Shown: piece after piece, positions 1,311-6,937 of the stretch
How the letters are laid out: each line of letters starts with the position of its first letter
How positions within the stretch are numbered: the first letter of the stretch is position 1
NCBI RefSeq assembly: GCF_944327115.1
Contig: NZ_CALVGS010000054.1
Location: forward strand, 1-51,185
DNA from: an uncultured Traorella sp.
GTDB taxonomy: Bacteria > Bacillota_I > Bacilli_A > Erysipelotrichales > Erysipelotrichaceae
DNA: 51,185 nucleotides
Direction: 5' to 3'
The notes under the pieces: model-generated
Told to the model about the DNA's origin: nothing
The model's database searches: none
The model's input: the letters and a program-made list of their open reading frames with translations, nothing else
Position numbers and translations under genes: made by a program

Positions 1311-1342
1311 AGAAAAATCCTGATTTTTTTAAATCAGGATTT
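1311..1342 (-). terminator. Intrinsic terminator after the PEPCK/HprK-like gene
   Basis: A perfect 12-base-pair stem (1315-1326 with 1331-1342) has a four-base loop and is followed by a short U-rich stretch. It overlaps the stop codon of the upstream gene. Confidence 0.8.
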
Positions 1343-3028
1343 CTGAATAAATTCTAACAGCTGTTTTGCACCTTCCTGAATGCCACTGCGATCTTCCTTT
1401 GAGAATCCTAAATGCGTAAAAATCTCACCTACGAAAATATTATTTTTATATAAGCATTCAAATACTTCATCGATCAATGGCTGACAGATTTCCTGTTTCT
1501 GCATCGGACCGAATGGGTTTGCGAAATACGTTCTTGACAGACCGACTTCCTGTGTCGTACCTAAGGCCATACGCTGTCCCTGAATACAGATCTTTTTAAT
1601 TTCCTCTGGATCATCAATACGGCGCAGTCCCAGCTCCTTGTCATAGTTGTTGGCATAAGCAAATAAATCAATCTTATGATTATGTGCTACGATATCATAG
1701 CTTGCAGCCGGTGTGATGACACGGGCATTTGAGCTGTCCGGATTTAAGAATACCGAACGATCCATATCACGATAAGGGGTACCTTTATCCAAATCATCCA
1801 AGCGGATAAACGCACCGATCTCTGTTCCCTGACCATAAGGAATGCCATCTTCAATGTGGATCGTACCCATATCATCAAATACTACTTCGATGTTGCTGAT
1901 GACTTCATCACCTAATGAACGCAGCGCTTCGATCGATTCGCTCTTTCCTGCTCCGGAATCTCCCATCAGCATGATTCCTTTTTTCTTGCCGTCACGCAGC
2001 GTAACATTAACAAAAGCACCATGGATCGGCAGCCAGCCTCTTTGCATCATCGCCAGATTATGAAGCGTCAGACTCATCTTCTTGATATATCCGAAATATT
2101 CGATCTTCTGTGAATATGAAACCGAACCGATCCAGATATCATTCTTTTCATCATGATGGAAGGTCGTTTCATTCAAACCGTCCTGATTACCAAACAGCAC
2201 GATACAATCCGGTTTATGCGTACATTCTTCAGCTGTCGCAATTTCAAACAGATTCGCAAGCGAAACACCGCTGCACATAAAGTCACGATGGAAATAAACA
2301 AAGCATAAAAGACGTCCGATCTTGATCGGCATACAGAACCATTCTTTCGGTGTTCCCTTGAAAACAGCAATCGGATTGTCGGCTCTTTCCGTAAACATAC
2401 CTTCACGCTTGTTGCTTCTTGTCGTCAGCATCAATGGTGTCCTTAACATGATGCTGTCGATCATCGGTATCCGCTTTAAGCACTCATATTCCTCCGGAAG
2501 ACGTGTATGCGGGATCCTTACTGCCGCAGCAGCATTTGTTCCGGACTGCAATTGACGATAGATCTTATTTTTTCTGCCCTGGACCTTTTCTTCGATATGA
2601 CGATAGGTATCCCGTATCAGACGGTTAAAATTAGAATCATTCGTAATATAGTTTACAGCTGTTGACGTTTGTCCGTTTCCGATATAAGTGATGGAAAAAC
2701 GCTGATGATGCTTCCAAAAATCATAAAATTCCTCAATAAATTCAAGCAGCTGATCTTTATCATTCAAATAATAGTTGTCAATTTCATTACACTCAAAAAC
2801 ACTCATCAGACGAAAGCATCTTGTAATTTCAACCTTCGCTTCCCGAACGGTCTTGCCATTCAAGATCCAGTTATACAGATCTCTGTTCGTTTCCTTTAAG
2901 CTTTCAATGAAAATCTCCGTTATATTGCGAAATTCCGGTGAATTTAAAAGCTCAGCCGTACTTCTTACATAAGAAGCACTGAAATTCAGAATAGCCACCT
3001 GTTCATTCATGTAAATTGATTCTTTCAT
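1334..3028 (-). CDS. Unknown protein with a C-terminal PEPCK/HPr-kinase-type P-loop domain
   Basis: This is a 564-residue protein of unknown function. The first 320 or so residues match nothing I recognise. The C-terminal part has the order of the PEP carboxykinase/HPr kinase superfamily: LPIHGAFVNV (331-342, resembling the histidine segment before the P-loop in PEPCK), the P-loop MGDSGAGKSES (355-365) and an acidic strand VVFDDMG (382-388). HPr kinases have a very similar GxSGxGKSE loop but are only about 310 residues long. ATP-type PEPCK has GLSGTGKTT and other metal-binding residues that I do not see here. It is therefore probably a phosphotransferase of new specificity. An AGGAGG five bases before the ATG fixes the start and overlaps the end of proS, so the two are translationally coupled. 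Confidence 0.6.
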   Translation of the reverse strand: MKESIYMNEQVAILNFSASYVRSTAELLNSPEFRNITEIFIESLKETNRDLYNWILNGKTVREAKVEITRCFRLMSVFECNEIDNYYLNDKDQLLEFIEEFYDFWKHHQRFSITYIGNGQTSTAVNYITNDSNFNRLIRDTYRHIEEKVQGRKNKIYRQLQSGTNAAAAVRIPHTRLPEEYECLKRIPMIDSIMLRTPLMLTTRSNKREGMFTERADNPIAVFKGTPKEWFCMPIKIGRLLCFVYFHRDFMCSGVSLANLFEIATAEECTHKPDCIVLFGNQDGLNETTFHHDEKNDIWIGSVSYSQKIEYFGYIKKMSLTLHNLAMMQRGWLPIHGAFVNVTLRDGKKKGIMLMGDSGAGKSESIEALRSLGDEVISNIEVVFDDMGTIHIEDGIPYGQGTEIGAFIRLDDLDKGTPYRDMDRSVFLNPDSSNARVITPAASYDIVAHNHKIDLFAYANNYDKELGLRRIDDPEEIKKICIQGQRMALGTTQEVGLSRTYFANPFGPMQKQEICQPLIDEVFECLYKNNIFVGEIFTHLGFSKEDRSGIQEGAKQLLEFIQKS

Positions 3029-3037
3029 GTAAACCTC

Positions 3038-4723
3038 CTATTTCTTGAATCGTTCCAATAATTCCTCAACGCTCATTTCCTCTTTCAAAGAAGTTGCACG
3101 TGTCGTACACTCAACAATCCTTTCACCTGCCCTGCGTCCGATCGTAATACGATAAGGCAGACCAATCAGATCCATATCCTTGAATTTGACACCGGCACGC
3201 TCATCCCGGTCATCCAGCAAAACATCATAGCCCATCTTCTGAAACTTGTCATAAAGCTCAAGCGACAACTCTTTCTGGGCCTCATCCTTATTGCTGACAA
3301 GCACGATACCAATTTCAAAAGGAGCAATGCTTTCAGGCCAGATGATACCATTTTCATCGTTGTGCTGCTCAACGACAGCTGCCAGGCATCTGCCCAGCCC
3401 GATGCCGTAACAGCCCATCTGTACCGGATGCAGCTGATTGTTCGCATCAAGATAATTCAAGCCCATGGTTTTTGAATACTTATCGCCAAGCTTAAAAGTA
3501 TTGCCAATTTCGATTCCCTTCGTAAAAGACAGCTTCTTTCCGCAGCACGGACAGACATCGTTTTCTGTGATCACAGAGATATCACCGATAAGATCTGCCT
3601 TGAAATCCTTCAAATTCACATTTTTTAAATGCGTATCCGTCTTATTGGCCCCACAGATGAAATTTTTCATTTTGGTCACTTCCTGATCCATGACGATCTT
3701 TACGTTTTCCAAGCCGACAGGACCGGCAAAGCCCACAGCGGCATGAGTCAGCATTTCCACATCCTCAAAAGACGCCATTTCCATTTCACTCGCATGCAGC
3801 AGCTTCAAGGCCTTTGTTTCATTCAGTTCACGGTTTCCCTTCAACAAGAATGCCACAAACTCATCAGAAACCTTATAAAGAAGCGTCTTCACAAAGCGGT
3901 CGGCATCTGTGTTCATAAATGCCGCAACTTCATCGATCGTCTTCGCATTCGGAGTCGATACCTCCTCCATCACACCCTCTTCTTCATCAGATACGCTTTC
4001 TGAAACGACTACCGGTGCAACCTCCAGATTACTTGAAAAATCACAGGAATCGCACTGTACGATCACATCTTCACCGATATCACAGGTCGCCTGGAATTCT
4101 TCACTTAAAAGACCTCCCATCACGCCCAGATCGGCATTAACGATCTTATAAGTAAGATCCATGCGATCAAAGATACGCTTATAAGCCTCAAACATTTTCT
4201 GGTAAGAAACTTCCAAGCCATCTAAATCGGTATCAAAAGAATAAGCATCCTTCATGATAAATTCGCGCACACGTATGAGTCCGTAACGCGGACGTGTTTC
4301 ATCACGAAACTTTGTCTGAATCTGATATAAATTATATGGGAAATCCTTATAAGAAGAACCATCCATGCTTGCCGCAACGGTAAAAAGCTCTTCATGGGTA
4401 GGACCTAAGACATAATTTTTCTGATAGCGGTCTTTCAAAGAAAACATATTGCTGCCGAAATTCTCACGGCGACCGCTTTTTTCATAAACCTCTTCCATGA
4501 TCAGCGTCGGCATCAAAAGCTCCTGGGCACCTGTCGCATTCATTTCCTCACGGATGATATTTTCAATCTTATTTAAAACAAGCTTGCCCATTGGCATGAT
4601 CATATAAATACCATTACTTGTTTTCTTGATCATTCCGGCTCTCACCAGAAGATTTCCACTTACACTTTCTTCATCTTTCGCATTTTCTCTTAATGTATAA
4701 AAGAAGCTTTCACTTAATTTCAT
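3038..4723 (-). CDS. proS: Prolyl-tRNA synthetase (bacterial type with editing domain)
   Basis: This class II synthetase charges tRNA-Pro. The ATG at 4723 is chosen because AAGGAG lies just before it. An in-frame ATG at 4762 lies inside the upstream gene and lacks such a site. The 561 residues show motif 1 (around GQELLMP-like GAQELLMPTL), motif 2 with FRDETRPRYGLIRVREF (about 139-155), and a long insertion (about 220-370) that is the INS editing domain removing Ala-tRNA-Pro. Motif 3 is GCYGIGLGR (437-445), followed by the anticodon-binding domain. The length fits the ProS type of most bacteria. It sits ten bases after trhP2 and just before the PEPCK/HprK-like gene, in one operon. Confidence 0.97.
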   Translation of the reverse strand: MKLSESFFYTLRENAKDEESVSGNLLVRAGMIKKTSNGIYMIMPMGKLVLNKIENIIREEMNATGAQELLMPTLIMEEVYEKSGRRENFGSNMFSLKDRYQKNYVLGPTHEELFTVAASMDGSSYKDFPYNLYQIQTKFRDETRPRYGLIRVREFIMKDAYSFDTDLDGLEVSYQKMFEAYKRIFDRMDLTYKIVNADLGVMGGLLSEEFQATCDIGEDVIVQCDSCDFSSNLEVAPVVVSESVSDEEEGVMEEVSTPNAKTIDEVAAFMNTDADRFVKTLLYKVSDEFVAFLLKGNRELNETKALKLLHASEMEMASFEDVEMLTHAAVGFAGPVGLENVKIVMDQEVTKMKNFICGANKTDTHLKNVNLKDFKADLIGDISVITENDVCPCCGKKLSFTKGIEIGNTFKLGDKYSKTMGLNYLDANNQLHPVQMGCYGIGLGRCLAAVVEQHNDENGIIWPESIAPFEIGIVLVSNKDEAQKELSLELYDKFQKMGYDVLLDDRDERAGVKFKDMDLIGLPYRITIGRRAGERIVECTTRATSLKEEMSVEELLERFKK

Positions 4724-4733
4724 ATTCTTCTCC

Positions 4734-5954
4734 TTAATATATGTGTCGATCCGATTTATCAACGATCTTACGGATCATATCATTTTCTTTCACTTCAAAA
4801 TCAATTCTTGTTTTCAATAGCTGCATCGGCTTATTCGCAACATCCACTTCAATTCCATTTTCATCAAAGCAGGGATTTAAGATCATAGGGCGTGTATAAT
4901 CCGGTCCGAAGACCTCAACAGGTATCTTCATTTCAAAATGATTCTTTACCTGAATCAAAGCCATATGCGTTGTTTTATCATATTCCAGGATCGAAGCAAT
5001 ATATTCTTGGGTCACACCCGCTCCATTGACACCATACAGCTGGTCAGATGCCTTTGGCAAGCCTTCATAGAAACCGTTGGCCGTCGGCCGGTTTTCACTT
5101 CTTGAAAGCTCATCCAGAATCATCTTCATTTTCTCATCATCCAAACTCTGTTCATAAACGGCATCGATCAGCATACGATAGGCACGAACGACCGTTGCCA
5201 GATAATAAGGCGATTTCATGCGTCCTTCGATCTTTAAAGAAGCAATATCCGCATCGATCAGATCCGGAATATAAGAAGCCGCCATCAGATCCTTGCTGCT
5301 CATGGAAAATAAATGCTTTTCATCATGAATGAACTGATCTTTTTCCAACAACCGATATTTCCATCGGCAGCTTTGGGCACATCCGCCACGATTGGCATCA
5401 CGTGTGGTCATATGATTGGAAAGCGTACAGCGTCCGGAATAAGAAATGCACATACCGCCATGAATAAATACTTCAAGCGGCAGTGAGGCATGCTTTGCTA
5501 CGCTTTTGATCTGATCAAGGCTGCACTCTCTTGCCAATACGACACGATCGGCCTGCTCACTTTTCCAAAAATCAACAGCTTTGGAATTGGTCGTTGAATG
5601 CTGGGTACTGATATGGACCTCCAGCTTCTTCGCAACCCTTTTAGCGCAGCGTACCACGCTCAAAGAAGCACAGATGATGGCATGGACACCGATCCTTTCC
5701 AAGGCCATTAAATATTGTTCCAACTCCTCTAAATCATCTTCATGAGGAATGATATTGACCGTCACATGCACATGCGCACCATGTGCCTTCGCAAACCTGA
5801 CGCCCTCTTCAATGGCCTCTAAATCAAAATTAGAAGCACGAGAACGCAAGGAGAACTGCTTTCCGCCAATATATACCGCATCTGCACCATACAGCACGGC
5901 AATCTTCAATCGTTCAAGATCTCCTGCCGGAGCAAGCAATTCAATCTTTTTCAT
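4734..5954 (-). CDS. trhP2: U32-family tRNA hydroxylation protein, YrrO/TrhP2-like
   Basis: This 406-residue member of the peptidase U32 family begins with the typical ELLAPAGDLERLK. It carries the U32 signature EVFIHGGMCISYSGRCTLS, with further cysteines in RGGCAQSCRW. In Bacillus subtilis the neighbouring genes yrrN and yrrO encode such proteins, which are needed for the prephenate-dependent 5-hydroxylation of U34 in some tRNAs; E. coli has one relative, TrhP. The older label collagenase-like protease is probably misleading here. The gene overlaps the shorter U32 gene upstream by ATGA and has a strong GGAGG site, so the pair is translated together. proS follows in the same operon. Confidence 0.9.
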   Translation of the reverse strand: MKKIELLAPAGDLERLKIAVLYGADAVYIGGKQFSLRSRASNFDLEAIEEGVRFAKAHGAHVHVTVNIIPHEDDLEELEQYLMALERIGVHAIICASLSVVRCAKRVAKKLEVHISTQHSTTNSKAVDFWKSEQADRVVLARECSLDQIKSVAKHASLPLEVFIHGGMCISYSGRCTLSNHMTTRDANRGGCAQSCRWKYRLLEKDQFIHDEKHLFSMSSKDLMAASYIPDLIDADIASLKIEGRMKSPYYLATVVRAYRMLIDAVYEQSLDDEKMKMILDELSRSENRPTANGFYEGLPKASDQLYGVNGAGVTQEYIASILEYDKTTHMALIQVKNHFEMKIPVEVFGPDYTRPMILNPCFDENGIEVDVANKPMQLLKTRIDFEVKENDMIRKIVDKSDRHIY

Positions 5955-6838
5955 TGCCCCGCCTCCTTGACAAGAGTTGTCTTTTTATACATAAACCCTT
6001 CACTGAAAGCATATTCAGGATAGGCCTGCCGATAATGCTGATAACAAGCTTCACCATCGATCTCACCCGAAAGGATGTGATGAATATCATGGGCGGCCTG
6101 AAAGATCATCTCTTCATCCAAATGAATTCCCTCAATTCTGAAATCACAGTTTTCCAATTCCTTAAGCTTAGAAAACATACAAAAAACGGTTCCGCTTAAA
6201 ATAAATGTGCCAGTTTCATCCTGAAAGATCGGCATTTTCTCATCACGCGTTTCCTCCATCAGATAAAGATCCTTAGAAGCACTGCGATCCTCTAAACCGC
6301 AAAACTCAAAATAACTCGATAAAAGCTTACGCCTGGAATGCATCATTACATTATACCCAAACACGCTGACTTCACAGCCCTGGCAGCGGCTCAAAATATG
6401 TTTCATATCATCAAGCGTGATTTCTCTTGCCAATACCACACGATCGATCCCCAAGCGAAGATATTCATTGGCATCCTGGCTGCTGGCAATCAAGGTCGTC
6501 GGCTGATAGATCAACATATCTTCCATCTTCATTTCTTTGGCCATCCAATAGACACCCATATCCGCAAAATAAATACGATCGATCTTGTTATCTTTACAAA
6601 AAAGCAACGCATCCTGAAATCGACCAAGATCGTCTTCCATGACAAAATTCAACATATTGACACCCACTTCTAATCCTAAATCATGGGCCTGCTTTACTAT
6701 TTCTTTCAAATCTTCCATCCTGTACACCCTTGCGGGCCTTGCCGATACATGGGGCAATGAAACGATGATCCGGTCGATCCCACATGCAGCATAACGATCA
6801 AGATGATTGATTTCAAGACAGTCGCTGATCAATTTCAT
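5951..6838 (-). CDS. trhP1: U32-family protein, YrrN/TrhP1-like
   Basis: This is the shorter member (295 residues) of the paired U32 genes. The ATG at 6838 is chosen because AAGGAG lies eight bases upstream, and because a longer reading would start upstream of the promoter. The protein keeps the U32 barrel pattern, for example GIDRVVLAREITLDDMK, which parallels ADRVVLARECSLDQIK in the next gene. It lacks the cysteine-rich U32 signature of the long paralogue, as YrrN does. It is therefore probably a partner subunit in tRNA U34 hydroxylation rather than an independent enzyme. It is the first gene of the trhP1-trhP2-proS operon and overlaps trhP2 by four bases. Confidence 0.82.
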   Translation of the reverse strand: MKLISDCLEINHLDRYAACGIDRIIVSLPHVSARPARVYRMEDLKEIVKQAHDLGLEVGVNMLNFVMEDDLGRFQDALLFCKDNKIDRIYFADMGVYWMAKEMKMEDMLIYQPTTLIASSQDANEYLRLGIDRVVLAREITLDDMKHILSRCQGCEVSVFGYNVMMHSRRKLLSSYFEFCGLEDRSASKDLYLMEETRDEKMPIFQDETGTFILSGTVFCMFSKLKELENCDFRIEGIHLDEEMIFQAAHDIHHILSGEIDGEACYQHYRQAYPEYAFSEGFMYKKTTLVKEAGQ

Positions 6839-6863
6839 TCTACTCGCTCCTTCCGATTGTATT

Positions 6864-6892
6864 ATTATACTGTTTTTAGGCAAAATTGTATA
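6864..6892 (-). promoter_or_regulatory. Promoter of the trhP1-trhP2-proS operon
   Basis: On the minus strand a TATAAT -10 (6864-6869) lies 17 bases from a TATACA -35 (6887-6892), some 25 bases before the trhP1 start. The plus-strand zinc-ribbon gene diverges from the same 100-base region. Confidence 0.65.
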
Positions 6893-6937
6893 GAAGGTTT
6901 CCAAAATTTTGTGTACAATATTGTTAGAGGTGGTATC

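Follow-up and report, generated by a model that had tools for sequence, protein, structure and literature searches.

A divergent PEP carboxykinase-fold protein with an additional N-terminal domain from Traorella and its relatives

Phosphoenolpyruvate carboxykinases (PEPCKs) that use ATP, GTP or PPi have been described, and the PPi type is unrelated to the others according to a review (PMC8100219). A second source ascribes a malate dehydrogenase and a PEP carboxykinase to L. reuteri JCM 1112 from BLAST and literature (PMC6821008). The systems compared here are ATP-dependent PEPCK, represented by E. coli PckA with PF01293, TIGR00224 and PRK09344 as membership models, GTP-dependent PEPCK (PF00821), the C-terminal domain of HPr kinase/phosphorylase (PF07475) and DUF4914 (PF16260). 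Among lactobacilli, L. plantarum lp_3418 is presumably also a PEPCK. A plasmid-borne relative of our protein from L. fermentum, sharing 44% identity, is already annotated as phosphoenolpyruvate carboxykinase, so the fold class is not in itself new. What is new in the family is the added domain, the type of P-loop and the lack of a curated model; in the open-access literature we found no paper characterising the protein or its family.

The window, a 51,185-nucleotide stretch of DNA from an uncultured Traorella sp., encodes this protein of 564 residues in an open reading frame whose coordinates and length are as originally predicted and which lies on the minus strand (Table 1). The closest sequence is from Traorella (Erysipelotrichaceae), the T. 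massiliensis copy being 96% identical. With 77 positions invariant across 69 aligned members of a conserved full-length family, the frame is no chance frame. The order LPIHGAFVNV, MGDSGAGKSES, VVFDDMG, from which a PEPCK/HPr-kinase fold had been proposed, is found as described in the translation. The proS stop codon (TAG, 3038–3040) precedes the ATG of the gene (3028–3026), and the suggested coupling to proS by an overlapping ribosome site holds locally, where AGGAGG runs over the TAG. It does not hold as a general feature; proS lies directly upstream in 5 of the 92 loci of relatives, and a conserved operon with proS was rejected on this count. Upstream of proS lie two U32-family ORFs (4734–6904), with the 406-residue ORF matching TrhP (tRNA hydroxylation) below cut-off (283 vs 534 bits). 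Downstream of the gene, at 533–1276, is an N-acetylmuramoyl-L-alanine amidase ORF that is CwlD-like, again below cut-off (134.3 vs 221.55 bits).

Table 1. Features of the gene and its surroundings in window coordinates, and of degenerate paralogs in the coordinates of their own loci.
Feature	Position	Strand	Basis
CDS, divergent PEPCK-fold protein (P0001)	1334..3028	-	ORF, family and structure
Shine-Dalgarno AGGAGG, overlaps proS stop codon	3034..3039	-	direct reading of sequence
proS, upstream neighbour, context only	3038..4762	-	identity checked
Extra N-terminal domain, mostly helical, residues 1-166	2531..3028	-	no confident fold match
PEPCK N-domain, residues 167-300, boundary approximate	2129..2530	-	structural alignment
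Invariant R208, candidate for E. coli R65	2405..2407	-	family alignment
YFGYIKK (311-317), equivalent to E. coli Y207...K212K213	2078..2098	-	alignment to PckA
PIHG (334-337), with H336 equivalent to E. coli H232	2018..2029	-	alignment to PckA
P-loop GDSGAGKSE, residues 356-364, HPr-kinase-like wording	1937..1963	-	family alignment
FDDMG, residues 384-388; D385 D386 invariant, likely metal-binding Asp pair	1865..1879	-	family alignment
Invariant pair E403...R409, candidate for E. coli E282...K288	1802..1822	-	spacing
NAR (434-436), candidate for E. coli N331-T-R333	1721..1729	-	hhalign; weak post-P-loop match
FANPFG, residues 502-507, invariant	1508..1525	-	family alignment
Degenerate paralog	L197:3548-4996		
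Degenerate paralog	L198:4192-5580		
Degenerate paralog	L199:4117-5532		
Degenerate paralog	L200:4214-5644		
Degenerate paralog	L201:1158-2621		

A full-length match to an already characterised family, which the original prediction had named as the finding that would speak against it, was not obtained by sequence: scans against Pfam and NCBIfam brought no model over its curated cut-off. The best matches beneath the cut-offs were PEPCK_ATP, Hpr_kinase_C, DUF4914 and generic P-loop models, with ATP-PEPCK at 18.2 vs 26.5 bits for PF01293 and 18 vs 369 for NCBIfam. The likeness to DUF4914 is a weak match near the P-loop (E 0.0068, profile positions 221–286 of 612) at 15 bits against a cut-off of 25.7, and the remainder is unmatched. 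Across the family, 55 of the 62 members scanned gave a PEPCK_ATP match at E ≤0.1 (best 2.7e-7), and some relatives exceed the PF01293 cut-off with a partial match; PDB sequence searches returned low-scoring P-loop and chance matches only. With the P-loop left out, residues 165–348 matched the PEPCK profile at E 8.4e-5, as against 0.59 for an ABC-ATPase control, and the part following the P-loop, taken alone, matched it weakly (E 0.01). The whole-length hhalign probability for PEPCK (96.0%) is not diagnostic because the ABC-ATPase control cluster scored nearly as high (95.4%, 83 columns at the P-loop); the argument for PEPCK is carried by the P-loop-free segment and by the structural match.

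The structural match was obtained with an AlphaFold2 model of the protein built from a 62-sequence alignment (mean pLDDT 90.4, pTM 0.90). All 50 of the 50 Foldseek matches listed were PEPCKs (best E 7.9e-15), which bears out the fold class originally assigned. VIA-align superposed the model on T. thermophilus ATP-PEPCK with a Z of 19.2 (349 residues, 3.1 Å) and on E. coli PckA entries with Z 17.1–18.2, PckA residues ~4–466 pairing with model residues ~170–564; GTP-dependent PEPCK shares the fold as well (Z ~16). The two-domain PEPCK fold is present in the predicted model (Z 17.1–19.2, ~350 residues, 3.1–3.7 Å). By predicted structure, then, a match to a characterised family does exist for residues ~170–564 and does not for residues 1 to ~166. 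PEPCK chains align from their own N-terminus at model residues 170–177, and therefore only residues 1–166 are extra; of the approximately 320 N-terminal residues previously described as unfamiliar, ~170–310 belong to the PEPCK N-domain by structure and 1 to ~166 remain additional.

Modelled alone, residues 1–166 reached a pLDDT of 83.9. Foldseek with this model returned nothing better than E 0.88, and rows 1–20 of the VIA results were globins at Z ≤5.3 (100 residues at 3.9 Å), below the background stated for the tool; on these values, a known fold for the domain is not supported. The family alignment has no invariant His in residues 1–166, so that if the domain were globin-like, haem would not be held in the usual way. 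The globin likeness may be taken as a lead only.

Although the metal and substrate motifs typical of PEPCK had been reported as not visible, YFGYIKK...PIHG is spaced as YGGEMKK...SMHC is in E. coli PckA, and NAR is a candidate for the E. coli NTR. The counterparts of E. coli Y207, K212/K213 and H232, which we take to belong to the metal and substrate sites, are Y311, K316/K317 and H336; the spacing is identical and all are invariant. P-loop residues K362 and S363 occur in 62 of 62 members, within a consensus, GDSGAGKS, unlike the GLSGTGKT of ATP-PEPCK. The D385/D386 pair is also present in 62 of 62, located 23–24 residues past the P-loop Lys as against 14–15 in E. coli; given this difference in spacing, and given that hhalign places the E. 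coli pair D268/D269 elsewhere, we only infer the equivalence. N434 and R436 are invariant and aligned with E. coli N331xR333, presumably the site of the substrate carboxylate, a correspondence made insecure by the weak post-P-loop sequence match. E. coli R65 has no firm counterpart; R208, invariant in 62 of 62, is a better candidate than position 204, which varies, and the region has no local profile alignment. The adenine-site R449 shows no visible conservation in the family. All 69 aligned members keep the core residues without change, as do all 62 in alignment A1, which is drawn from the 69 (alignment A2 holds 57 of these 62). The protein has in common with ATP-PEPCK the fold over residues ~170–564, the Tyr, Lys-Lys and His counterparts, the P-loop Lys and a candidate NxR, and differs from it in its low identity (~16% in structural alignment), shorter C-terminus and additional 166-residue N-terminal domain.

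Both the P-loop GDSGAGKSE and the segment with IHG look like what we take to be the HprK motif, which, along with a weak Pfam Hpr_kinase_C match (E 0.02) and a shared fold class, brings up a protein kinase/phosphorylase of HPr kinase type that would act on a serine of HPr or of another protein. However, the scores lie well under the cut-offs (14.8 vs 33.3 bits for PF07475; 18 vs 240 for TIGR00679), the fold matches over ~350 residues are to PEPCK, and a bona fide HPr kinase is encoded separately in the same genome, as in 90 of the 95 Erysipelotrichaceae genomes. We hold this activity to be very doubtful, and an HPr kinase identity was rejected on the sub-cut-off scores and the separate true HprK. 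The invariance of the PEPCK metal-site residues and of the candidate substrate residues, together with the true HPr kinase elsewhere in the genome, also makes an oxaloacetate/PEP enzyme more likely than the role first suggested, a new phosphotransferase without a named target.

Relatives of the protein are present in 61 of the 95 genomes of its own family, the Erysipelotrichaceae, in 62 of the 295 genomes of a phylum sample, and in 40 of the 201 genomes of the family of Limosilactobacillus vaginalis; of the 17 loci given by a genome-contig scan, 14 belong to lactobacilli. The own-family tally was lowered from 62 to 61 because the match in genome G027 is a degenerate paralog, and the phylum tally from 65 to 62 by leaving out G242, G276 and G293, in which the weak core matches are divergent PEPCK-like proteins of a different type, here called type D. 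Partial matches in G029, G070 and G073 were counted as carriers, as were those in four f12 genomes within the 62 of 295. Very long reading frames across the gene in these four genomes were dismissed as artefacts of masked bases.

We compared the presence of the family with that of other PEPCKs, using co-occurrence sets compiled by hand for the own family and the phylum sample and excluding PF01293 matches that belong to the family itself. Another PEPCK occurs in 14 of the 95 own-family genomes (11 canonical ATP-PEPCKs and three divergent), all of them outside the 61 carriers, where an overlap of 9.0 was expected (P 7e-8, phylogeny ignored); counted by genus, the family occurs in 39 genera and another PEPCK in 9, with a single genus shared (P 3e-4). 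In the L. vaginalis family, where 40 of 201 genomes carry the 564-residue family and 33 the divergent type, none carries both (expected 6.6, P 3e-4, phylogeny ignored), and another PEPCK was absent in 11 of the 11 searchable lactobacilli from the contig scan. PEP carboxylase over cut-off and GTP-PEPCK were each found in 0 of the 95 own-family genomes, that of the window included for PF00821, and a pyruvate carboxylase/OadA (oxaloacetate decarboxylase) domain in 2 of the 61 carriers vs 12 of the 14 genomes with another PEPCK; PF00311, PF02436, PF00821 and PF07475 were searched in the own family only. The genome from which the window comes (95.9% complete) holds no other PEPCK, PEP carboxylase, GTP-PEPCK or pyruvate carboxylase/OadA domain. 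Five own-family genomes with canonical ATP-PEPCK (G002, G023, G026, G059 and G071) have an OadA-type gene ~1 kb away on the same contig, which suggests a PEPCK–oxaloacetate decarboxylase module in those genomes.

In f2, another family of the same order, 8 of 10 genomes carry the 564-residue family alongside a canonical ATP-PEPCK, and two genomes of f9 carry it alongside the divergent PEPCK type; across all 295 genomes of the phylum sample, the overlap with other PEPCKs is 10, above the 5.9 expected. Replacement of other PEPCKs thus characterises certain lineages and is not a rule. The f2 coexistence, together with the divergent C-terminal half and the family-specific conserved blocks GTEIGAFxRLDD, YANNY, GTTxE and FANPFGPxQ, would fit a PEPCK-fold kinase that keeps the metal and triphosphate sites and acts on another small molecule, such as a different keto acid or enol. 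We regard this alternative as rather unlikely, in that the counterparts of the PEPCK-pocket Tyr, Lys-Lys, His and NxR are invariant and the family and other PEPCKs exclude each other in two families. The f2 coexistence and the weak C-terminal sequence match are likewise among the chief doubts on the PEPCK reading.

Two further groups of proteins have to be set apart from the family. Type D (~550 residues; L081–L083, L133–L136), with the motifs YFGELKK, CHGG, GLSGSGKS, VLHDDAF and ANPF, replaces the 564-residue family between genomes of the L. vaginalis family. Unlike that family, type D scores 40–87 bits to PF01293 and has a GRxAxARR segment like the E. coli GRSPKDK; the extra N-terminal domain of our protein does not align to it. 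In the own-family genomes G009 and G064, type D lies ~1.5–4 kb from an OadA-type gene, which supports an oxaloacetate role for type D. The second group consists of degenerate paralogs of ~470 residues, 19–27% identical, that have lost the P-loop and other core residues, in five own-family genomes. Each of the five has, next to the paralog, an ORF with a PyrR-like start (L201 by NCBIfam PyrR, L197 by Pfam Pribosyltran, L198–L200 by sequence appearance only), and a class V aminotransferase lies upstream in L198 and L201. These paralogs have the look of a pseudoenzyme with the PEPCK fold, set in a pyrimidine context. Their existence, at least one of them beside a confirmed pyrR, lends some ground to the idea that the 564-residue protein is itself a catalytically dead PEPCK-like regulator; unlike the paralogs, however, its family retains the core residues in 69 of 69 members, and we consider this idea extremely improbable.

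Most neighbours in the 92 loci are unrelated and not conserved (cluster members beyond the scanned proteins were assigned by BLAST clustering). Besides proS, the recurring ones are U32-family genes in 8 loci, two genes upstream, and MFS transporters in 7. Formate-THF ligase (fhs) is upstream in 5 loci, with purE downstream in 4 of those; asnA (asparagine synthetase) is upstream in 2, at 24 and 55 bases; enolase is downstream in one. A class I/II aminotransferase adjoins the gene in 4 loci, two of them on the same strand at 0 and 8 bases. An NCBIfam scan of the adjoining aminotransferases gave none over cut-off, and for two searched in the PDB the nearest entries were uncharacterised aminotransferases followed by aspartate aminotransferases. 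This minority of neighbours, namely fhs with purE, asnA, enolase and the aminotransferases, fits an oxaloacetate/aspartate/purine role.

Taken together, a model for the protein emerges. The computed basis is the fold, the invariant residues, the distribution, and the absence of other known oxaloacetate-forming carboxylases; on this basis we think it likely that this is a divergent PEPCK whose main direction is toward oxaloacetate, and we infer the reaction, its direction and the nucleotide. It would be a divalent-metal-dependent P-loop enzyme interconverting oxaloacetate and a nucleoside triphosphate with PEP, CO2 and a nucleoside diphosphate. The metal would be held by K317, H336 and an Asp of D385/D386, the oxaloacetate or PEP by Y311, N434/R436 and an N-domain Arg, and the triphosphate by GDSGAGKS. 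The role is probably anaplerotic: in these fermentative cells the enzyme would chiefly convert PEP to oxaloacetate and supply the synthesis of aspartate, asparagine, pyrimidines and purines. A more far-reaching version, which we deem unlikely, has the family as a separate PEPCK clade outside the curated ATP and GTP models, in which the HPr-kinase-like P-loop would go with another phosphoryl donor, which might be PPi or a non-adenine nucleotide; the N-terminal domain would be a sensor, perhaps haem-free and globin-like, controlling what would be, for many lactobacilli and Erysipelotrichaceae, the chief way of fixing CO2 into oxaloacetate.

If the divergent PEPCK reading is true, it would name the oxaloacetate-forming enzyme of gut Erysipelotrichaceae that are otherwise apparently without one, and would suggest that the ‘PEPCK’ of a number of lactobacilli is of this divergent type. 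Metabolic models would gain a checkable reaction, and the added N-terminal domain a checkable regulatory role.
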